64,000 nt of DNA, from NCBI GenBank assembly GCA_016214955.1, contig JACRMN010000023.1, positions 1 through 64,000 of the forward strand, in the 5' to 3' direction. Origin of the DNA: Deltaproteobacteria bacterium (GTDB lineage: Bacteria > Myxococcota > Myxococcia > Myxococcales > Anaeromyxobacteraceae). Of this stretch, positions 16,045 through 27,001 are shown piece after piece (within the stretch, counting starts at the first letter, position 1; every line of letters starts with the position of its first letter). Both the position numbers and the translations under genes were made by a program. The notes beneath the pieces are model-generated. The model worked only from the letters and a program-made list of their open reading frames with translations. It had not been told where the DNA came from and ran no database searches.

Positions 16045-16353
16045 ATGAAGGTCACGGACACCAGTCAGATCAGGGCGTTGGACCTGAATCGACAGGCCGA
16101 AGCGAATCGTGTCCAGAAGCCGGAGCAGCCGGATACCGAGGACCGGGTCACCACCGAGCAGTCGTCGCGCATCGCGGCGGCGGTCGCGGAGGCGACGAAG
16201 CGGTCCGGAGTGGGCTCGAGGACCGAGATGCTGCAGGCCATCGAGGCGTCGGTGCGCCAGGGAACCTACAGGCCGGATCCCAATCGCATCGCGCAGAAGA
16301 TCCTGGACGAGGCGGAGCTGGCCGCTCGGTTGCAGGCACTCCTGCAGCGTTAG
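16045..16353 (+). CDS. flgM: Anti-sigma-28 factor FlgM
   Basis: FlgM binds FliA and blocks late transcription until it is exported through the finished hook. The 102-residue product is polar with a disordered N-terminal half, and its C-terminal half holds the FlgM core (VRQGTYRPDPNRIAQKILD). Length and position between flgJ and flgN are as in other species. The target FliA is encoded at 9701-10384. Confidence 0.9.
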   Translation: MKVTDTSQIRALDLNRQAEANRVQKPEQPDTEDRVTTEQSSRIAAAVAEATKRSGVGSRTEMLQAIEASVRQGTYRPDPNRIAQKILDEAELAARLQALLQR

Positions 16354-16376: not shown

Positions 16377-16850
16377 ATGAGCCTCGAGTCCGCCGTCGGC
16401 GCGGCCGTACGGTTGCGCGAGAGCCTCGCCCGCGAGGTGGAGGCGGCGCGCGGGGAGCGGATCCTCCTCCGCAAGCTCGACAGCCAGGCCCTGCTGACCC
16501 GCGCCGCCGAGCGCGCGCACTTCCTCTCCCACACCGCCCGGCAGGAGCGCGACCTGGCCGACGCACTCTCCGCGGCCGCCCAGGCCCTCGGGCTCCAGCA
16601 GGTCACCGTGGCCTCCCTGACCCGCGCCTCGCCGCGCCTGGGCGCGCAGCTCGGCGACCTCCTGAGCCAGATCCGCGCACTGGCCGGCGCCCTGCGCGAG
16701 CTCGATCAGCTCAACGCCTCCCTGGCCCAGCGCGCCCTCTCCTGCGTCCGCGGCTACGTGGAGGCCCTGTCTCCCACCCCGCGCGCCTACGACCGCGGCG
16801 GCCTGCGGGCCGACGCCCGGGCGCTCGTCTCCGTTTCCTCGAGGGCCTGA
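16377..16850 (+). CDS. flgN: Hook-filament junction chaperone FlgN
   Basis: FlgN is the cytoplasmic chaperone for FlgK and FlgL. The 157-residue product is almost entirely helical, with heptad-rich segments (about 15-60 and 85-130), as in FlgN-family proteins. Sequence conservation is weak. Position between flgM and flgK is decisive. AGGGAG lies upstream of the chosen ATG. flgK starts one base after its stop. Confidence 0.83.
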   Translation: MSLESAVGAAVRLRESLAREVEAARGERILLRKLDSQALLTRAAERAHFLSHTARQERDLADALSAAAQALGLQQVTVASLTRASPRLGAQLGDLLSQIRALAGALRELDQLNASLAQRALSCVRGYVEALSPTPRAYDRGGLRADARALVSVSSRA

Positions 16851-16851
16851 C

Positions 16852-18261
16852 ATGGCGGACCTGCTCTCGATCCTGGCCAACGCCGCCTCCAGCCTGCAGG
16901 CCCAGCGGGCGCTCACCGCCACCGCCAGCCACAACATCCAGAACGCCAACACCCCCGGCTACGCCCGCCAGCGCGCCTCCCTCGAGGCGGTGGAGCCTGC
17001 CGAGGTGGTGAACGGCGTCTACATCGGCCGCGGCTCGACCCTCACCACCGTCACCCAGGTCCGCGACCGCTTCGTCGAGGCCCAGCTCGGAGGGGCCATC
17101 GCCAACGCCGCCCGCTCCACCGCCGAGTCGGAGGCCCTGGCCTCCCTCTCCAGCCTCGACGCCAGCGCCCAGGGCGGCCTGGGCGCGGCCATCAGCGGCT
17201 TCTACGGGGCGCTGCGGAACCTCTCCCAGAACGCCAGCGACGCCGGCCTGCGCACCACCGTGCTGGGCTCGGCCAGGACCATGGCGTACGCCTTCAACCG
17301 CACCGCCCAGGAGGTGGCCGCGGCCCGCACCGCCCTCGACAGCCAGGTGACCGGCCTCGCCGAGCAGGTGAACGAGGAGGCGCGGGCGGTCGCCGACCTC
17401 AACCTCCAGATCCGCGCCTCCCGCGTCGGCGGCCACGAGCCCAACGACCTCCTCGACCTGCGCCAGCGGCACGTCGACAAGCTGGCCGAGCTGGTGGGCG
17501 CCATCACCGTCGAGACCAGCGAGGGCGACGTCAACATGGTGCTGCCGGGCGGCGTCGGCCTGGTGGGCGGCGGGCTCCACGCCACCCTCTCCACCGCCAT
17601 CGACGTGGCCAACGACCGCCACCTCCGGCTGCAGCTCACGGCCATGGACGGCAGCGGCCCCACCGCGGTGGCCAACGCCGCCTTCTCCGGCACCCTGGGC
17701 GGCTCGCTGGCGGCCCGCGACGGCGGCCTGCGGGACACCGCCGCCAAGCTCGACCAGCTGGCCTTCGACCTCGCCGGCGCGCTCAACGCCGTCCACTCCG
17801 CCGGCGCCGGCCTCGACGGCGTCTCGGGCCGCAACCTCTTCGTGGCCCCGGCCGCGGTGAGCGGCGCGGCCGGGCGGCTCGCCGTCCAGGTCACCGACGC
17901 CAGCCAGCTGGCGGCGGCCGCGGCGCCGGTGCCCCCGGCCACCGTGGCCCCCGGCGACGCCTCCAACGCCCAGGCGCTGGTGGCCACCGAGAGCCAGGCG
18001 CTCAGCACCGGCGTCGACGTCCAGGCCACCTTCTCGGCCATCATCTCCAGCTACGGCTCCGAGACGCAGCGGGCCAGCGCCTTCGCCACCCAGGACCGGG
18101 CGATGCGGGACAACCTCGAGGGGATGCGCGAGGCCGCCTCGGGCGTCTCCATCGACGAGGAGCTCATCGAGATGCAGCGGGCGCAGCGCGGCTACGAGGC
18201 CATCGCCAAGATCATCCAGACGGCCGACGCCATGCTCCAGACGCTCATGCAGCTCCGCTAG
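16852..18261 (+). CDS. flgK: Hook-filament junction protein FlgK
   Basis: FlgK (HAP1) is the first junction protein between hook and filament. The 469-residue product has the N-terminal helical motif with SHNIQNANTPGYARQRA, a long helical region with the FlgK pattern NLNLQIRASR-like (DLNLQIRASRVGGHEPNDLL), and the C-terminal helix EMQRAQRGYEAIAKIIQTAD. Length is toward the short end for FlgK. It is co-directional with flgN and flgL. Confidence 0.95.
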   Translation: MADLLSILANAASSLQAQRALTATASHNIQNANTPGYARQRASLEAVEPAEVVNGVYIGRGSTLTTVTQVRDRFVEAQLGGAIANAARSTAESEALASLSSLDASAQGGLGAAISGFYGALRNLSQNASDAGLRTTVLGSARTMAYAFNRTAQEVAAARTALDSQVTGLAEQVNEEARAVADLNLQIRASRVGGHEPNDLLDLRQRHVDKLAELVGAITVETSEGDVNMVLPGGVGLVGGGLHATLSTAIDVANDRHLRLQLTAMDGSGPTAVANAAFSGTLGGSLAARDGGLRDTAAKLDQLAFDLAGALNAVHSAGAGLDGVSGRNLFVAPAAVSGAAGRLAVQVTDASQLAAAAAPVPPATVAPGDASNAQALVATESQALSTGVDVQATFSAIISSYGSETQRASAFATQDRAMRDNLEGMREAASGVSIDEELIEMQRAQRGYEAIAKIIQTADAMLQTLMQLR

Positions 18262-18270
18262 GAGGCCGCC

Positions 18271-19176
18271 GTGCGGGTCACCGACAGGCTCGTCTTCGAC
18301 AACGCCATCCTCAGCACCGGCAAGGCCCGCGAGGCCTCGGAGGCGGCGATGAGGCGCGCCGCCAGCGGCAGCAGGGTGGACCACCCGTCCGACGACCCGG
18401 CCGCGGCCGGCCTGATGCAGGCGCTGGGCTTCTCCGCCGCCCGCCTCGAGGCGGTGTCGCGCAACGCCGGCCTGGCCCAGAGCGAGCTCCAGTCGGCCGA
18501 CTCCGCCCTCGACCAGGTCTCGAACGCCCTGGCCCGCGCCCAGCAGCTGGCGGTGCAGATGTCCAACTCCACCTTCGGCGCCCAGGAGCGGGGCTTCGCC
18601 GCCTCCGAGGTGCAGCAGCTCGTCTCCATGGTCATCGCCGCCGGCAACACCCGCTTCGGCAACCGCTGGATCTTCGGTGGCAACCGGGACGGCGCGCCGC
18701 CCTTCGCCGACGGCACCGACCCGGTGATCCCGGCCGGCACCTACCTGGGCGACGCGGCGGTGCGCCAGGTCGAGATCGCGCCCGGCGTGCTGCAGGACGC
18801 CTCCATCCGCGGCGACGTGACCTGGAAGGGAGCCGGCGGCGGCGTGGACGTCATCGCCACGCTGCAGGGTCTCCAGGCCGCCCTGGCCAGCAACGACACG
18901 GCGGCGGTGAGGGCGGCCCTCACCCCTCTCGACGCCGCCGTGGGCCAGGTGGGCGCGGCCCGCTCGCGGGTGGGCGCCTCCATGGACGCCTTCTCCACCG
19001 CCAACGCCGCCACCAAGCTCGCCGCCGGGGAGACCCAGACCCGCGCCGACAAGCTCGGCGAGGTGGACATCGCCGAGTCCTCCATCGAGCTGGCCGCCGC
19101 CCAGCGCGCCCTGGAGGCCTCGCTCTCGGTCGCCGCCCAGGGCTTCCAGCTCTCGCTCCTCGACTACATCACCTGA
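18271..19176 (+). CDS. flgL: Hook-filament junction protein FlgL
   Basis: FlgL (HAP3) is the second junction protein and is flagellin-like. The 301-residue product has the N-terminal flagellin helix (RAASGSRVDHPSDDPAAAG), the NRWIFGGNRDGAPPF turn typical of FlgL, and a C-terminal flagellin-type helix (DIAESSIELAAAQRALEASL). It starts with GTG preceded by AGGAGG. An unassigned gene follows after 3 nt. Confidence 0.93.
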   Translation: MRVTDRLVFDNAILSTGKAREASEAAMRRAASGSRVDHPSDDPAAAGLMQALGFSAARLEAVSRNAGLAQSELQSADSALDQVSNALARAQQLAVQMSNSTFGAQERGFAASEVQQLVSMVIAAGNTRFGNRWIFGGNRDGAPPFADGTDPVIPAGTYLGDAAVRQVEIAPGVLQDASIRGDVTWKGAGGGVDVIATLQGLQAALASNDTAAVRAALTPLDAAVGQVGAARSRVGASMDAFSTANAATKLAAGETQTRADKLGEVDIAESSIELAAAQRALEASLSVAAQGFQLSLLDYIT

Positions 19177-19179
19177 CCC

Positions 19180-21456
19180 TTGGCCCCCTCGACCCTCACC
19201 GCCCGCCCGCCCCGGAGCCGCGAGCGCGCGCCCCTCCGCGGCGACGCACGCCTGGCGGCCGAGGCGCTGCTGCGCTGGCGCGCCTGGTGGATGGGCCACC
19301 ACCTTCAGCGGCCGCTCGCCTCCGCGGCCCGGCTCTTCCCGGTGATGCTCCACGCCAGCTTCCCGGTGGCCCGCCTGTCGGGCGAGGCGCCGGGCGTCGC
19401 CGGCCTCCAGTTCCGGCGCCGCTGGTCCTCGCTGGCCCGGTCCCTCGACCTCCCGCCCCCGAACCGCATGCAGCGCGGGCGCCCGCTGGTGGATGCGGTC
19501 CTCGCCATCCCCGCGCCGCGCGGCCTCGACCTGCTCCTCCTGGTGAGCGCCGAGGCCCAGCCCGAGGAGCTGGGCGCGGTGCAGGCGCGGATGGAGGCGG
19601 CCGAGTCCCTCTTCCGCGCCTTCGGCGCCCAGGTGCGGGCCAGCATCTACCCCCCGTCCCGCCTGGCGGCCGACCCCGAGGCCGGGCCGCGGGCCGTGGC
19701 CTTCGGCGCCCTCCTGGCCGGCCGGCCCTCCGCGGCCGCCTGGGCGGCCCTGGAGGAGAGCGCCAGCCGCCCCTTCGACGGCTGGATCGCCACCGCCCTG
19801 GCCGCCAGCGCTCCCACGCCGCTCGCCACCCTGGCGCTCACCCTCCTCTCCCTGCACCGCGCCCCGGGCCCGCTGGTGGCGGCCCGCGGGCTCCTGCTCG
19901 AGGGCGAGACGGCGCGGCGCCTCGCCAGCGTCGACCTCTTCGCGGTGGGCTGGGCCGGCCGCATCCCCGATCTGCACGAACCGCTGCTGGCGGCGATGGC
20001 CCGCGCCCGCCGCGACGCCGGGTCCGACCCCGCCGACCTGCCGGCGGTGCTGCGGCTCGGCGCCAGCCTGGCCGTCTCCTGCAGCGGTGCCATCCGGCGC
20101 GCCCGCGGCCAGCTCGATCGCCACACCAAGCGGCTCTGGCAGGAGGCCCTCGGCCCGGGCATGCCGCGGGTGCTGCTGCCGGCGCTCGGCGACCTGGTCC
20201 GCGCCCACGCCGCCGCACACGGCCGGCTGCCCCTCGACCCGGTGCGCGCCGGCCGCCACTACGAGGTGCGGCTCCCCGACGGCACCGCGCTGGGCCGCGG
20301 CCGCGACCCGGTGCAGGCCCGCATCCGCGCCCTCGGGCTCTGCGCCCAGGCCTGCGCCGCCAGCCAGGACCCGGCGGCCGCCGCCGACCTCTTCCACCAC
20401 CTCGACCCCACCTGGCGGGTCGTCGCCCGGCGCCTGGCGCAGCCCCGCGAGCGCCAGGCCCAGGTGCTGGTGGTCGAGGCCGGCGGCGGCTCCCGCCCCG
20501 GCCCGCCCTTCGACGTCCTCAACCGCGGCGTGGACCGGGCCATGGAGTTCGAGGGCGCGCTGGTGGTGACGGTGGCCCCGGGTCGCCGCCCCTCGGGGCG
20601 GATGCTCGCGGCGCACGAGGCGGTCGAGGCGGTCATCCGCAGCTCCGGCGACGACGTGCCCGTGGAGATCCTGGCCTCGCGCGCCGAGTCGCGCCCGGTG
20701 GCCTCGCGCCTGTCCCAGATCGCCCAGCTGGTCCGCGACACCGCCCACCACGGCCCGGTGGCGGTCGAGGCCGGGGGCCAGGTGTACCTTCCCTTCCGCG
20801 GCGGCCTGCGCCGCTACGCCCTGGATCGCTTCGCCTCCCGGCCCCGCAGCTTCACGCCCGATCCCGAGGCACCCGACCTGGCGGCCGGCCCCGGCGAGCG
20901 GCCCGCCCGCGGCCGGCTGCCGTCCGGCATGCTGGCCTGCAGGGTCACCCTCTGCGGCGACGACCAGGCGGCGCTGCTCTTCGCCAGCGGCGACGGCGGC
21001 ATGCTGCGCGAGGTCATCCCGCTCCCGGAGCTGGAGGAGCACCTGCGGGAGGTGCGGTCCATCGTCCGCGAGGCGCGCCCGCCGGCGGTGCTGACGGTCC
21101 GGCTCTCCGACGACGTCGAGGCCGAGGTGCGCCGCAGCGGCCAGGTGCGCCAGGCCACCGCGGTGGCGGTGCGCGGCAACCTTCCCCGCGTGGAGGTGGA
21201 GGTGGGAGGCGAGCGCTTCGGCGGCGGCTCCAGCCTCGGCTGGGACGCGGCCGCCGACGCCCTGCTGGCCCGCTGGCCGGCCCGGGGCGGCGGGCGGATT
21301 GGCGTCAGCGCCGTGACGGCCACCGTCCACGACAGGCCGGCCGCGCCGCTGCTCGCCGTCTGGGCCGCGTCGGTGGCACGCCGCCGCCTGCGCGTGCGCC
21401 TGGAGCGCTCCCTGAAGGCTTATCGCGAGGCAGCCGCGAGTCGAAGAACTCCCTGA
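19180..21456 (+). CDS. Unassigned 758-residue protein, possibly class I adenylate cyclase-like
   Basis: I do not firmly recognise this gene. It lies between flgL and fliC and apparently starts at TTG 3 nt after flgL; a downstream start is possible. The product is soluble and rich in Ala, Arg and Leu, with no signal peptide. By memory-based comparison, three stretches resemble E. coli class I adenylate cyclase. One is an early helix (AARLFPVMLHASFPVARL), one a strand-helix-strand unit (GLDLLLLVSAEA, then AESLFRAFGAQVRASIYPP) like its nucleotidyltransferase fold, and one a C-terminal PVEILASR...SRLSQIAQLV segment. The catalytic GS loop and the first Asp of the DxD pair are missing, so it would be inactive as a cyclase. 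This link is tentative. Confidence 0.4.
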   Translation: MAPSTLTARPPRSRERAPLRGDARLAAEALLRWRAWWMGHHLQRPLASAARLFPVMLHASFPVARLSGEAPGVAGLQFRRRWSSLARSLDLPPPNRMQRGRPLVDAVLAIPAPRGLDLLLLVSAEAQPEELGAVQARMEAAESLFRAFGAQVRASIYPPSRLAADPEAGPRAVAFGALLAGRPSAAAWAALEESASRPFDGWIATALAASAPTPLATLALTLLSLHRAPGPLVAARGLLLEGETARRLASVDLFAVGWAGRIPDLHEPLLAAMARARRDAGSDPADLPAVLRLGASLAVSCSGAIRRARGQLDRHTKRLWQEALGPGMPRVLLPALGDLVRAHAAAHGRLPLDPVRAGRHYEVRLPDGTALGRGRDPVQARIRALGLCAQACAASQDPAAAADLFHHLDPTWRVVARRLAQPRERQAQVLVVEAGGGSRPGPPFDVLNRGVDRAMEFEGALVVTVAPGRRPSGRMLAAHEAVEAVIRSSGDDVPVEILASRAESRPVASRLSQIAQLVRDTAHHGPVAVEAGGQVYLPFRGGLRRYALDRFASRPRSFTPDPEAPDLAAGPGERPARGRLPSGMLACRVTLCGDDQAALLFASGDGGMLREVIPLPELEEHLREVRSIVREARPPAVLTVRLSDDVEAEVRRSGQVRQATAVAVRGNLPRVEVEVGGERFGGGSSLGWDAAADALLARWPARGGGRIGVSAVTATVHDRPAAPLLAVWAASVARRRLRVRLERSLKAYREAAASRRTP

Positions 21457-21494
21457 AGGGCGAACGCTAGGGTCGCCCATAACCAGGAGACTCC

Positions 21495-22325
21495 ATGGCT
21501 CTCTCACTCCGTACCAACGTGGCGTCCCTCAACGCCCAGCGCAACCTCTTCAGCACCCAGAACTCCCTCGACGGCTCGATGTCGCGCCTGTCGTCGGGTA
21601 TGCGCATCACGACGGCGTCGGACGACGCCGCCGGTCTGGGTATCAGCGTTCGGCTCGAGGCGCAGATCAGCAGCTACAACCAGGCCGCCCGCAACGCCTC
21701 GGACGGCATGTCCCTCATCCAGACCGCGGAGGCGGCGCTGAACACCGCGTCGAACATCCTCTCCCGCATCCGCGAGCTGGCGATGCAGGCCGCCACCGAC
21801 ACCGTCGGCTCCACCGAGCGCGGCTACCTGAACGGCGAGAAGAACAACCTGATCTCCGAGATCGACCGCAACGCCGCCACCGCGGTCTTCAACGGGGTCA
21901 GCCTGCTCACCGCCTCGACCTCGACCCTGAACTTCCAGGTCGGCATCGGCGCCACCACCAGCGACTCCATCTCCGTCACCACGGTGGACGGGACCTCGGG
22001 CGCCGGCGGCCTCAACGTCGCCACCCTGGACCTCACCACCCAGACCGCCGCCCAGGCCGCCCTCGGCACCATCGACAGCGCCCTGAACGCCGTCTCGTCC
22101 CGCCGCGCCACCCTCGGCGCCGCCGGCAACCGGCTCCAGATGACGCTGCTCAACATCAAGACCTTCTCCGAGAGCCTCTCGGCCGCCAACTCCCGGATCC
22201 GCGACGTCGACGTGGCCGAGGAGACCTCCAAGCTGGCCCGGTCGCAGATCCTGGTGCAGGCGGGCGTCTCGGTCCTGTCGCAGGCCAACACGATGCCGCA
22301 GATCGCCCTGAAGCTCCTCGGCTAG
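21495..22325 (+). CDS. fliC: Flagellin FliC
   Basis: This is the filament subunit. The 276-residue product has conserved D0/D1 ends (NVASLNAQRNLF, SRLSSGMRITTASDDAAGLG and the C-terminal DVAEETSKLARSQILVQAGV), with a very short central region (about 140-190). It thus lacks large variable outer domains and is among the shorter flagellins. AGGAGA precedes the ATG. A strong hairpin follows the gene, before fliD. No clear sigma-28 promoter with correct spacing is visible just upstream. Confidence 0.97.
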   Translation: MALSLRTNVASLNAQRNLFSTQNSLDGSMSRLSSGMRITTASDDAAGLGISVRLEAQISSYNQAARNASDGMSLIQTAEAALNTASNILSRIRELAMQAATDTVGSTERGYLNGEKNNLISEIDRNAATAVFNGVSLLTASTSTLNFQVGIGATTSDSISVTTVDGTSGAGGLNVATLDLTTQTAAQAALGTIDSALNAVSSRRATLGAAGNRLQMTLLNIKTFSESLSAANSRIRDVDVAEETSKLARSQILVQAGVSVLSQANTMPQIALKLLG

Positions 22326-22399: not shown

Positions 22400-23764
22400 A
22401 TGGCGACCATCACCACAGGGGGACTCGCTTCCGGTCTCGACACCAACTCGATCATCGACAAGCTGGTCCAGATCGAGTCCCAGCAGATCAAGCTCCTGCA
22501 ACAGCAGCAGACGGGCGTGCGGTCGCAGGTCTCGGCGCTCGGCGACCTGGCCTCGAAGCTCGGCGCCCTCCAGACCGCCACCCAGTCGCTCTCCGACTCC
22601 GGCGCACTCGGGGTCAAGACCACCAGCACCAACACCGCCTTCACCGCCGCCGCCACCGCGGCCGGCCTGCCCGGCTCCTTCCAGGTCACGGTCCAGCAGC
22701 TGGCCACCAGCGCACGCGCCCGCAGCCAGGCCTTCACCTCCGACGCGGTCCGGGGAGGGACGCTCTCCCTCGACATCCGCGGCACCACCTACGACGTCAC
22801 GGTGGACGACGGCATGAGCCTCGCCGACCTGGCCTACCGCATCCGCCAGAGCGGCGCACCGGTGTCGGCCACCGTCTTCGACGACGGCGTGGGCAACAAG
22901 TACCTCTCGCTCACCGCCCGCGACAGCGGCTACCCGCAGACCGGCCTGCCCTCGGCGGCGCTGGGCGTCACCTTCAGCGCCACCGGTTCGCTGGGAACCG
23001 CTCCGGCCTTCGCCGTCACCGACGCCCAGAACGCCCACCTGGTGGTGGACGGCATCCAGTTCGAGCGCACCAGCAACACCGTCACCGATGTGGTGCCGGG
23101 CGCCTCGCTCACCCTCAGCAAGCTGAGCGACGGCGTCACCCCGCCGGCCGCGCCAGGTGGCGACCCCTCGGGCGGCACGGCCGAGACCCTGACGATGGCC
23201 ACCGACGCCGCCGTCACCCAGTCGCGGCTCAAGGGCTTCGTCGACGCCTACAACGCGCTGATGGCGGCCATCCAGAAGCAGCTCGCCGTCGCCCAGGGCG
23301 CCGACCGCGGCGCCAACCTGGCCGGCGACTCCACCGTGCGCGGGCTGCAGGCCCGGCTCCAGGCCCTGGTCAGCACCTCGGCCACCGGCCTCTCCACCGG
23401 CATCCGCTCGCTGGCCGACCTGGGGGTCAAGACGGGCCGCGACGGCACGCTCTCCATCGACTCGGCGGCGCTCTCCACCGCCCTGGGCAAGGACGCCAGC
23501 GCCGTCAACGCCATCTTCTCCACCGCCACCTCCGGCATCGCCGCCACCGTGACGGCGATGAACACCACCTACACCCGCAGCGGCGACGGCCTGTTCACGG
23601 TGCGGCAGGACACCCTCAACACCCAGATCCAGCGGCTCACCGACTCGATGGCCGCCCAGCAGAAGCGGGTCGAGCTCTACCGCCAGACCCTGGTGAAGCA
23701 GTTCACCGCCATGGAGAACGTCGTCAGCCAGTGGAAGACCGTGGGCAGCTACCTCGGCAGCTGA
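22400..23764 (+). CDS. fliD: Filament cap protein FliD
   Basis: FliD (HAP2) caps the filament tip and folds exported flagellin. The 454-residue product has the N-terminal FliD domain (TGGLASGLDTNSIIDKLVQIE), a central region, and the C-terminal domain with the helical segment QIQRLTDSMAAQQKRVELYR followed by LVKQFTAMENVVSQWKTVGSYL. Length is normal. fliS follows after 20 nt. Confidence 0.95.
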   Translation: MATITTGGLASGLDTNSIIDKLVQIESQQIKLLQQQQTGVRSQVSALGDLASKLGALQTATQSLSDSGALGVKTTSTNTAFTAAATAAGLPGSFQVTVQQLATSARARSQAFTSDAVRGGTLSLDIRGTTYDVTVDDGMSLADLAYRIRQSGAPVSATVFDDGVGNKYLSLTARDSGYPQTGLPSAALGVTFSATGSLGTAPAFAVTDAQNAHLVVDGIQFERTSNTVTDVVPGASLTLSKLSDGVTPPAAPGGDPSGGTAETLTMATDAAVTQSRLKGFVDAYNALMAAIQKQLAVAQGADRGANLAGDSTVRGLQARLQALVSTSATGLSTGIRSLADLGVKTGRDGTLSIDSAALSTALGKDASAVNAIFSTATSGIAATVTAMNTTYTRSGDGLFTVRQDTLNTQIQRLTDSMAAQQKRVELYRQTLVKQFTAMENVVSQWKTVGSYLGS

Positions 23765-26230: not shown

Positions 26231-26311
26231 TTGATCCCGGGCAAAGCGCAAGCGGTGCAGCGAAAACCCCTGGAACCGCGGGCCTAGCTTGTGCAAACAG
26301 ACGGAGATCAA
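26231..26311 (+). promoter_or_regulatory. Possible FNR-type half-sites in moeA/FNR-like gene gap
   Basis: TTGAT-CCCG-GGCAA (26231-26244) matches 8 of 10 bases of the FNR box TTGAT-N4-ATCAA, and an ATCAA half-site lies at 26307-26311. They sit in the 211-nt divergent gap upstream of an FNR-like regulator. Autoregulation is plausible but unproven. Confidence 0.3.
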
Positions 26312-26341
26312 GAAATCCCGCTACACCCGCCGGAGGTCCCC

Positions 26342-27001
26342 TTGCTCTCCAACAGCCCCGTCTCAGACTGCAGCGCCTGTACGCTGGGAGTGGCCTCCGG
26401 GCAGGGGCGCTGCCGCTTCACGCCCACCGCCCGCGAGTCGGGCGCCACCATCTGCGCCCAGGGCGAGAGGCCGCGCACCGTGTACTTCATCAAGGAGGGC
26501 TTCGTCTCGCTCTCCGCCGTGAGCACCCGCGGCTCCGAGATGCAGCTCACGCTCCGCGGCCCGCACTCGCTCCTCTGCACCGAGGCCATGCGCGGCGAGC
26601 CCTCGCCGTCCGAGGTGCGGGCCCTCTCCCGCGTGAAGCTCTGCGGCCTGGCCGGCGACGCCATGAACCAGTGGGTCGGCCCGGAGCGGAGCCCGGCCCG
26701 CGCCGTGCTCGACCTGGTGCTCTCCGAGTCGAAGCTGCAGCGCGACGAGGTGAACTACCGGCAGGGCGACTGCCTCGCCCGCGTGGCCCGGTTCGCCCTG
26801 GCCCACGCCCGCTTCCTCGCCGATCGGCCCAACGCGGTTCGCAAGCAGGTGGTGGCCCGCCTGCTGGGCATGCGCCCCGAGACCCTCTCCCGCTGCCTCA
26901 CCCGCCTCGAGCGCGACGGCGTCCTCGACGCTTCGCGCGGCGTGCGGGTGGTCGATGCCCGCCGGCTCGCGGTCATCGCCTCCGAGGACGTTGCGGCGTA
27001 G
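26342..27001 (+). CDS. FNR-like transcription regulator with candidate Fe-S cysteines
   Basis: The product belongs to the CRP/FNR family: an N-terminal beta-roll and a C-terminal helix-turn-helix (ARLLGMRPETLSRCLTRLER). I chose the TTG at 26342 because GGAGG lies 6-7 nt upstream, giving 219 residues; a GTG at 26291 is an alternative. Counted from the TTG, cysteines lie at 10, 13, 24, 38, 79 and 101. C10/C13/C24 plus C101 match the arrangement of the four [4Fe-4S] ligands of FNR, so oxygen or NO sensing is likely (inference). tatA follows after 9 nt. Confidence 0.85.
   Translation: MLSNSPVSDCSACTLGVASGQGRCRFTPTARESGATICAQGERPRTVYFIKEGFVSLSAVSTRGSEMQLTLRGPHSLLCTEAMRGEPSPSEVRALSRVKLCGLAGDAMNQWVGPERSPARAVLDLVLSESKLQRDEVNYRQGDCLARVARFALAHARFLADRPNAVRKQVVARLLGMRPETLSRCLTRLERDGVLDASRGVRVVDARRLAVIASEDVAA

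Follow-up and report, generated by a model that had tools for sequence, protein, structure and literature searches.

What does the unassigned gene between flgL and fliC of a myxococcal genome encode, and does it serve the flagellar programme? The gene, here called X, is located on contig C19 of a 5.3-Mb genome. The window, to which all coordinates refer, is the whole stretch of 64,000 nucleotides that was analysed. A first-pass annotation had described X as an unassigned 758-residue gene with scattered resemblance to class I adenylate cyclases and suggested a pseudo-enzyme of the flagellar programme.

The locus and its reading frame

The + strand of the window carries a flagellar cluster in the order flgG, flgH, flgI, flgJ, flgM, flgN, flgK, flgL, X, fliC, fliD and fliS, with fliS recognized by sequence reading only. 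The genes closest to X are the following:

16045..16353, + strand, flgM (PF04316)
16377..16850, + strand, flgN (PF05130; start read from the sequence)
16852..18261, + strand, flgK
18271..19176, + strand, flgL (PF00669/PF00700)
19180..21456, + strand, X, 758 aa, probable TTG start, interpreted below as a pseudo class I adenylate cyclase
21495..22325, + strand, fliC, flagellin (PF00669/PF00700)
22400..23764, + strand, fliD

Gaps of only 3 bp and 38 bp separate X from the flgL stop and the fliC start, respectively. The 758 codons of X contain no internal stop, and G+C at codon positions 1, 2 and 3 is 0.83, 0.59 and 0.97, with third-position values likewise high in flgK, flgL, fliC and fliD. The intact open reading frame, the existence of a conserved family and the absence of any family match by sequence in Pfam, NCBIfam or PDB uphold the description as an unassigned gene. 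A search of the literature, restricted to open-access full text, found no description of such a gene either. X matched neither the FliW model PF02623 nor PF05130 or related chaperone models of the FlgN/FliS type, and FlgN is encoded by a separate gene. No membrane or secretion signal was recognizable in X by eye.

The TTG start directly past the flgL stop is plausible and remains unproven. X lies in the frame of flgL, and a single codon (CCC) separates the flgL stop from the TTG. The two genes (18271-21456) form one frame with one stop and one codon between them, and read-through would produce a fusion protein. On the opposite strand, an antisense open reading frame of 1598 codons (16711-21507, - strand) faces flgK-flgL-X and is most likely a shadow frame of high G+C. 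Searches for sigma-54 and sigma-28 consensus sites returned counts at chance level, and searches for terminators and sigma-70 sites found none. The transcription unit is thus inferred from spacing alone. A Crp/Fnr-type regulator with a cyclic nucleotide-binding domain is encoded 2.5 kb past fliD (26291-27001). It was considered as a cAMP link to X and dropped, as such regulators are also found by the flagellar cluster in relatives without X; the genomes with one close to the cluster are G001, G002, G010 and G011.

Homology to class I adenylate cyclases and the missing catalytic loop

The resemblance to class I adenylate cyclases proved to be real homology. The profile of X aligned with 14 class I cyclases at P=6.6e-7 in hhalign (133 columns, residues 27-159), while controls made by reversing or column-shuffling gave P between 0.38 and 0.99. 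The same profile retrieved the class I cyclase of the Myxococcota genome G145 with E=6.4e-4 in the genome search and 1.5e-6 in a small set. Sequence homology is significant for the first ~160 residues only. Past residue ~160, the likeness rests on the order of elements in two predicted models, that of X (AlphaFold; pLDDT 90.7, pTM 0.83) and that of the G145 cyclase, which is of medium quality only (pLDDT 70). When the two models are compared, 46 of the 47 secondary-structure elements of X (helices and strands) find a counterpart in the cyclase in the same order; permuting the order of elements 2000 times never gave an equally good score. The parts of X can be delimited as follows:

19258..19656, + strand, aa 27-159, N-terminal domain homologous to the N-terminal (nucleotidyltransferase) domain of class I cyclases
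19489..19545, + strand, aa 104-122, beta hairpin at the spot where the class I catalytic loop GSxGTxxQTxxSDxD is missing
19780..20229, + strand, aa 201-350, helical middle region of the AlphaFold model
20239..21447, + strand, aa 354-756, C-terminal alpha/beta regions, equivalent by element order to the C-terminal half of class I cyclases

The most conserved residues of the C-terminal regions are R554, P555 and R735. The predicted fold is compatible with a nucleotidyltransferase/class I cyclase topology, and this shared topology supports the earlier reading of the N-terminal part as nucleotidyltransferase-like. Foldseek points in the same direction without being significant alone. Its top matches to X include the nucleotidyltransferases ANT/AAD(9)/MNT, and nucleotidyltransferases are also among the top matches of the G145 cyclase model; none of these is significant, and X yielded no significant match against PDB and viral models. 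Numerous matches of X to reverse transcriptases were judged to be background. The model of X represents the class I cyclase topology confidently and over the full length; a sequence search found no solved structure of a class I cyclase.

The likeness could also stem from convergence of an unrelated protein on the common nucleotidyltransferase-like fold. The window protein has no match to PF12633 or PF01295 at the curated score, and the best of 24 family members reaches only E=0.035. However, the profile-profile alignment is significant under its controls, element order is matched over the full length, and other Myxococcota have an intact class I cyclase in the slot of X, which together make convergence most improbable. 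We have little doubt that the ancestor of X was a class I (CyaA-type) adenylate cyclase and that X has lost the catalytic motif.

The absence of the GS loop and first Asp, originally remarked on for the window protein, extends to the whole family. GS and the first catalytic Asp are missing from 21/21 members covering the region, whereas GS and SDxD are present in all 14 aligned class I cyclases. The first two core strands are joined by a loop of about 13 residues in active cyclases (positions 129-143 in the G145 cyclase) and of ~2 residues in X. The second carboxylate position is kept, as D117 in the window protein and as D or E in 17 of the 21 members. Without the catalytic motif, X should not cyclise ATP by the class I mechanism, although this inability to make cAMP is predicted from sequence, with no activity data. 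X might still be an enzyme that makes or transfers a nucleotide through a shifted active site, given the retained nucleotidyltransferase-type core and the acidic residue at the second Asp position in most members. Yet no member retains the GS loop and first Asp, the hairpin is far shorter than in active cyclases, and the top conserved residues are Arg, Pro, Gly and Trp, without acidic pairs. We therefore regard residual catalysis as highly improbable. The direction from active to dead enzyme is itself an inference, drawn from the fact that class I cyclases generally carry the motif.

The flgL-fliC slot across Myxococcota

In three genomes of another Myxococcota family (G145, contig QMME01000012.1; G146, JAAZNF010000012.1; G151, JALVPF010000223.1), the flgL-fliC interval holds FliW followed by a class I adenylate cyclase. 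These cyclases match PF12633 (E down to 5e-47) and PF01295 and carry the intact motif GSxGTxAQTxxSDxDLW. They are the sole PF12633 proteins in the 195 Myxococcota genomes, and none was found in the 145 genomes of Myxococcales. The G151 cyclase gene (L149:5248-8034) is split by an in-frame stop, and whether this is a real inactivation or an assembly error is undecided. Outside Myxococcota, the flanks examined around class I cyclase genes contained none of the flagellar marker genes (axial, ring) used in the test. By sequence, the flagellar cyclases of family f11 resemble X no more than other class I cyclases do. Direct descent of X from an f11-type cyclase hence rests on position, and the loss of activity at exactly this locus is likewise inferred from the shared position.

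FliW occupies the flgL-fliC interval in families f11, f17 and f20, and the active cyclase does so in f11. Hybrid histidine kinases take the place of X or FliW between flgL and fliC in G157 (L150:4706-6640) and G187 (L151:6028-7497). Regulators seem to occur in this interval repeatedly in Myxococcota. None of the X-bearing genomes, including that of the window, contains FliW (27 genomes with X, nine with FliW, no overlap). This exclusion may be only a lineage effect.

A protein search found X in four more genomes from its family and in 25 of the 145 genomes of its own order, Myxococcales. An alignment profile search returned strong matches in 27 of the 195 Myxococcota genomes to which all figures on distribution are confined. 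Flagellin was detected in 51 of the 195, including every genome with X. Strong matches are thus present in 27/51 flagellin-positive genomes and in 0/144 flagellin-negative ones (Fisher p=2e-19), and the association is also found inside Myxococcales alone (p=5e-24); neither value is corrected for phylogeny. A presence of X in non-flagellated relatives, which would have spoken against a flagellar function, was hence not encountered as a strong match in this sample. Weak profile matches in G035, G049 and a 62-aa stretch of G132 (contig C19) were taken as noise. A contig scan with peptide patterns from the window protein recovered no relatives and missed even those in Myxococcota, the patterns being too specific.

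Wherever the contig reaches far enough, in Myxococcales and in G171 outside the order, the genes follow the order flgK-flgL-X-fliC(-fliD) on one strand. Among homologues, the start of X ranges from -4 to about +26 bp relative to the flgL stop, which suggests translational coupling to flgL; the overlap is 4 bp in at least six genomes. About 20 full-length homologues share 22-54% protein identity and are open throughout. X is thus a conserved protein and no chance open reading frame. When sequence identities are compared pair by pair, the values for X follow those for FlgI, FlgK, FlgL and FliD (r=0.85-0.92) as closely as these four follow one another. The correlation is lowest with FliC (r=0.68). 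X is the fastest evolving gene of the operon, with a median identity of 28% vs 45-62%. The correlated divergence and the open full-length copies indicate that X was inherited with the operon without decay.

The rapid divergence also bears on the possibility that X handles flagellin, as a chaperone, export adaptor or part of a modification system, with the old cyclase fold binding flagellin or FlgL and expression left unregulated. A protein that must keep pace with a variable surface is expected to change fast, and X lies between the genes of the putative substrates. However, it is with FliC that X correlates least, FlgN is already encoded elsewhere in the operon, known flagellar chaperones are much smaller than X, and no family of modification enzymes matches it. 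We consider a handling role rather unlikely, although it cannot be excluded.

The idea that X always accompanies fliC could not be maintained. Three genomes of one genus of the same family (G001, G002 and G007) have complete flagellar clusters in which fliC directly follows flgL, and most flagellates outside Myxococcales lack X as well. X is therefore dispensable for having a flagellar operon. The genus is inferred to be Anaeromyxobacter dehalogenans-like. A 55.7-kb flagellar cluster has been described in A. dehalogenans 2CP-C, along with a remark that swimming is not often seen (PMC2330069). G001 (L032:6445-11263) and G002 encode a second fliC past fliD, a possible compensation for the loss of X. 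The assemblies of G138 and G049 are too fragmented to judge the presence of X.

Outside Myxococcales, X was found in G171 only among the 195 genomes. One copy lies in the flgL-fliC slot. In a second copy (contig C42, L139:9215-12985, - strand), the X domain is fused to a preceding zinc ribbon and Ser/Thr protein kinase domain; this copy is unlinked to the flagellar locus, with no flagellar genes seen nearby. The expected flagellar linkage thus stood for the slot itself, which is kept wherever it can be checked, and failed for this kinase-fused copy. The fusion suggests that the X domain is a sensing or binding module. The absence of X from the A. dehalogenans-like genus and other flagellated Myxococcota, together with its rapid divergence, could also mean that X strayed into the operon and is simply passed on with it as a passenger. 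Against this stand intact copies at the same place in several families and one lineage outside the order, as well as the lack of strong matches in flagellin-negative genomes. A mere passenger is very hard to reconcile with this pattern, and we think it very likely that X has a dedicated role in the flagellar programme.

A possible regulator of filament production

Overall, the best explanation, which we consider probable, is that X is a pseudo-cyclase with a fixed place in the late flagellar operon and that it probably controls filament production as a cytoplasmic regulator. In this reading, X derives from a class I cyclase and lies between flgL and fliC in the late operon of flagellated Myxococcota. 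On the way to Myxococcales it lost the catalytic loop but retained the overall fold, as homology, the model and conserved synteny show. X would be co-produced with the hook-filament junction and filament proteins, as inferred from the tight and often overlapping coupling to flgL. It might then act as a cytoplasmic, non-catalytic, binding regulator of filament production, for which there are no partner, expression or phenotype data. X could set flagellin synthesis or export by binding a nucleotide, a protein partner (for example flagellin, a chaperone or a regulator), or both. We favour a regulator because the slot repeatedly holds regulators (FliW, the active cyclase and hybrid histidine kinases) and because genomes with X lack FliW. 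Any specific mode of regulation remains tentative.

A more speculative possibility, which we hold to be doubtful, is a checkpoint between completion of the hook junction and flagellin production, in which a former cAMP enzyme turned pseudo-enzyme replaces the CsrA-FliW switch. We know of no earlier class I pseudo-cyclase with an assigned role, and X would be the first if the checkpoint were true. Myxococcota are better known for gliding, and X adds an undescribed, widely kept gene to their flagellar programme.

Several known systems can be compared with X. The aminoglycoside nucleotidyltransferases ANT(9)/AadA and the MNT antitoxins (PDB 6xz0, 7uy4, 7aer) share a nucleotidyltransferase core and match both X and the cyclase model weakly in Foldseek. 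The match to X is not significant, however, and these proteins are small single enzymes or antitoxins without a flagellar link. CsrA-FliW is an established switch of flagellin synthesis (PMC6529632). FliW resembles X in lying in the flgL-fliC interval of other Myxococcota, but belongs to an unrelated, much smaller family (PF02623, 122 positions) and is absent from all X genomes. Class I adenylate cyclases such as CyaA of enterobacteria (PF12633 Adenyl_cycl_N and PF01295 Adenylate_cycl) are of similar length to X and share with it a remote but significant N-terminal homology and the order of nearly all secondary-structure elements. In contrast to them, X lacks the GS...SDxD loop, is missed by the Pfam models and lies inside a flagellar operon. 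The cyclases of G145, G146 and G151 are homologous to X and occupy the same slot in the same orientation (flgK-flgL-...-fliC-fliD), but have an intact motif, fliW upstream and a greater length (about 925 aa). With an active second-messenger enzyme and dead relatives in the same operon slot of related lineages, the switch from enzyme to pseudo-enzyme becomes open to comparison.
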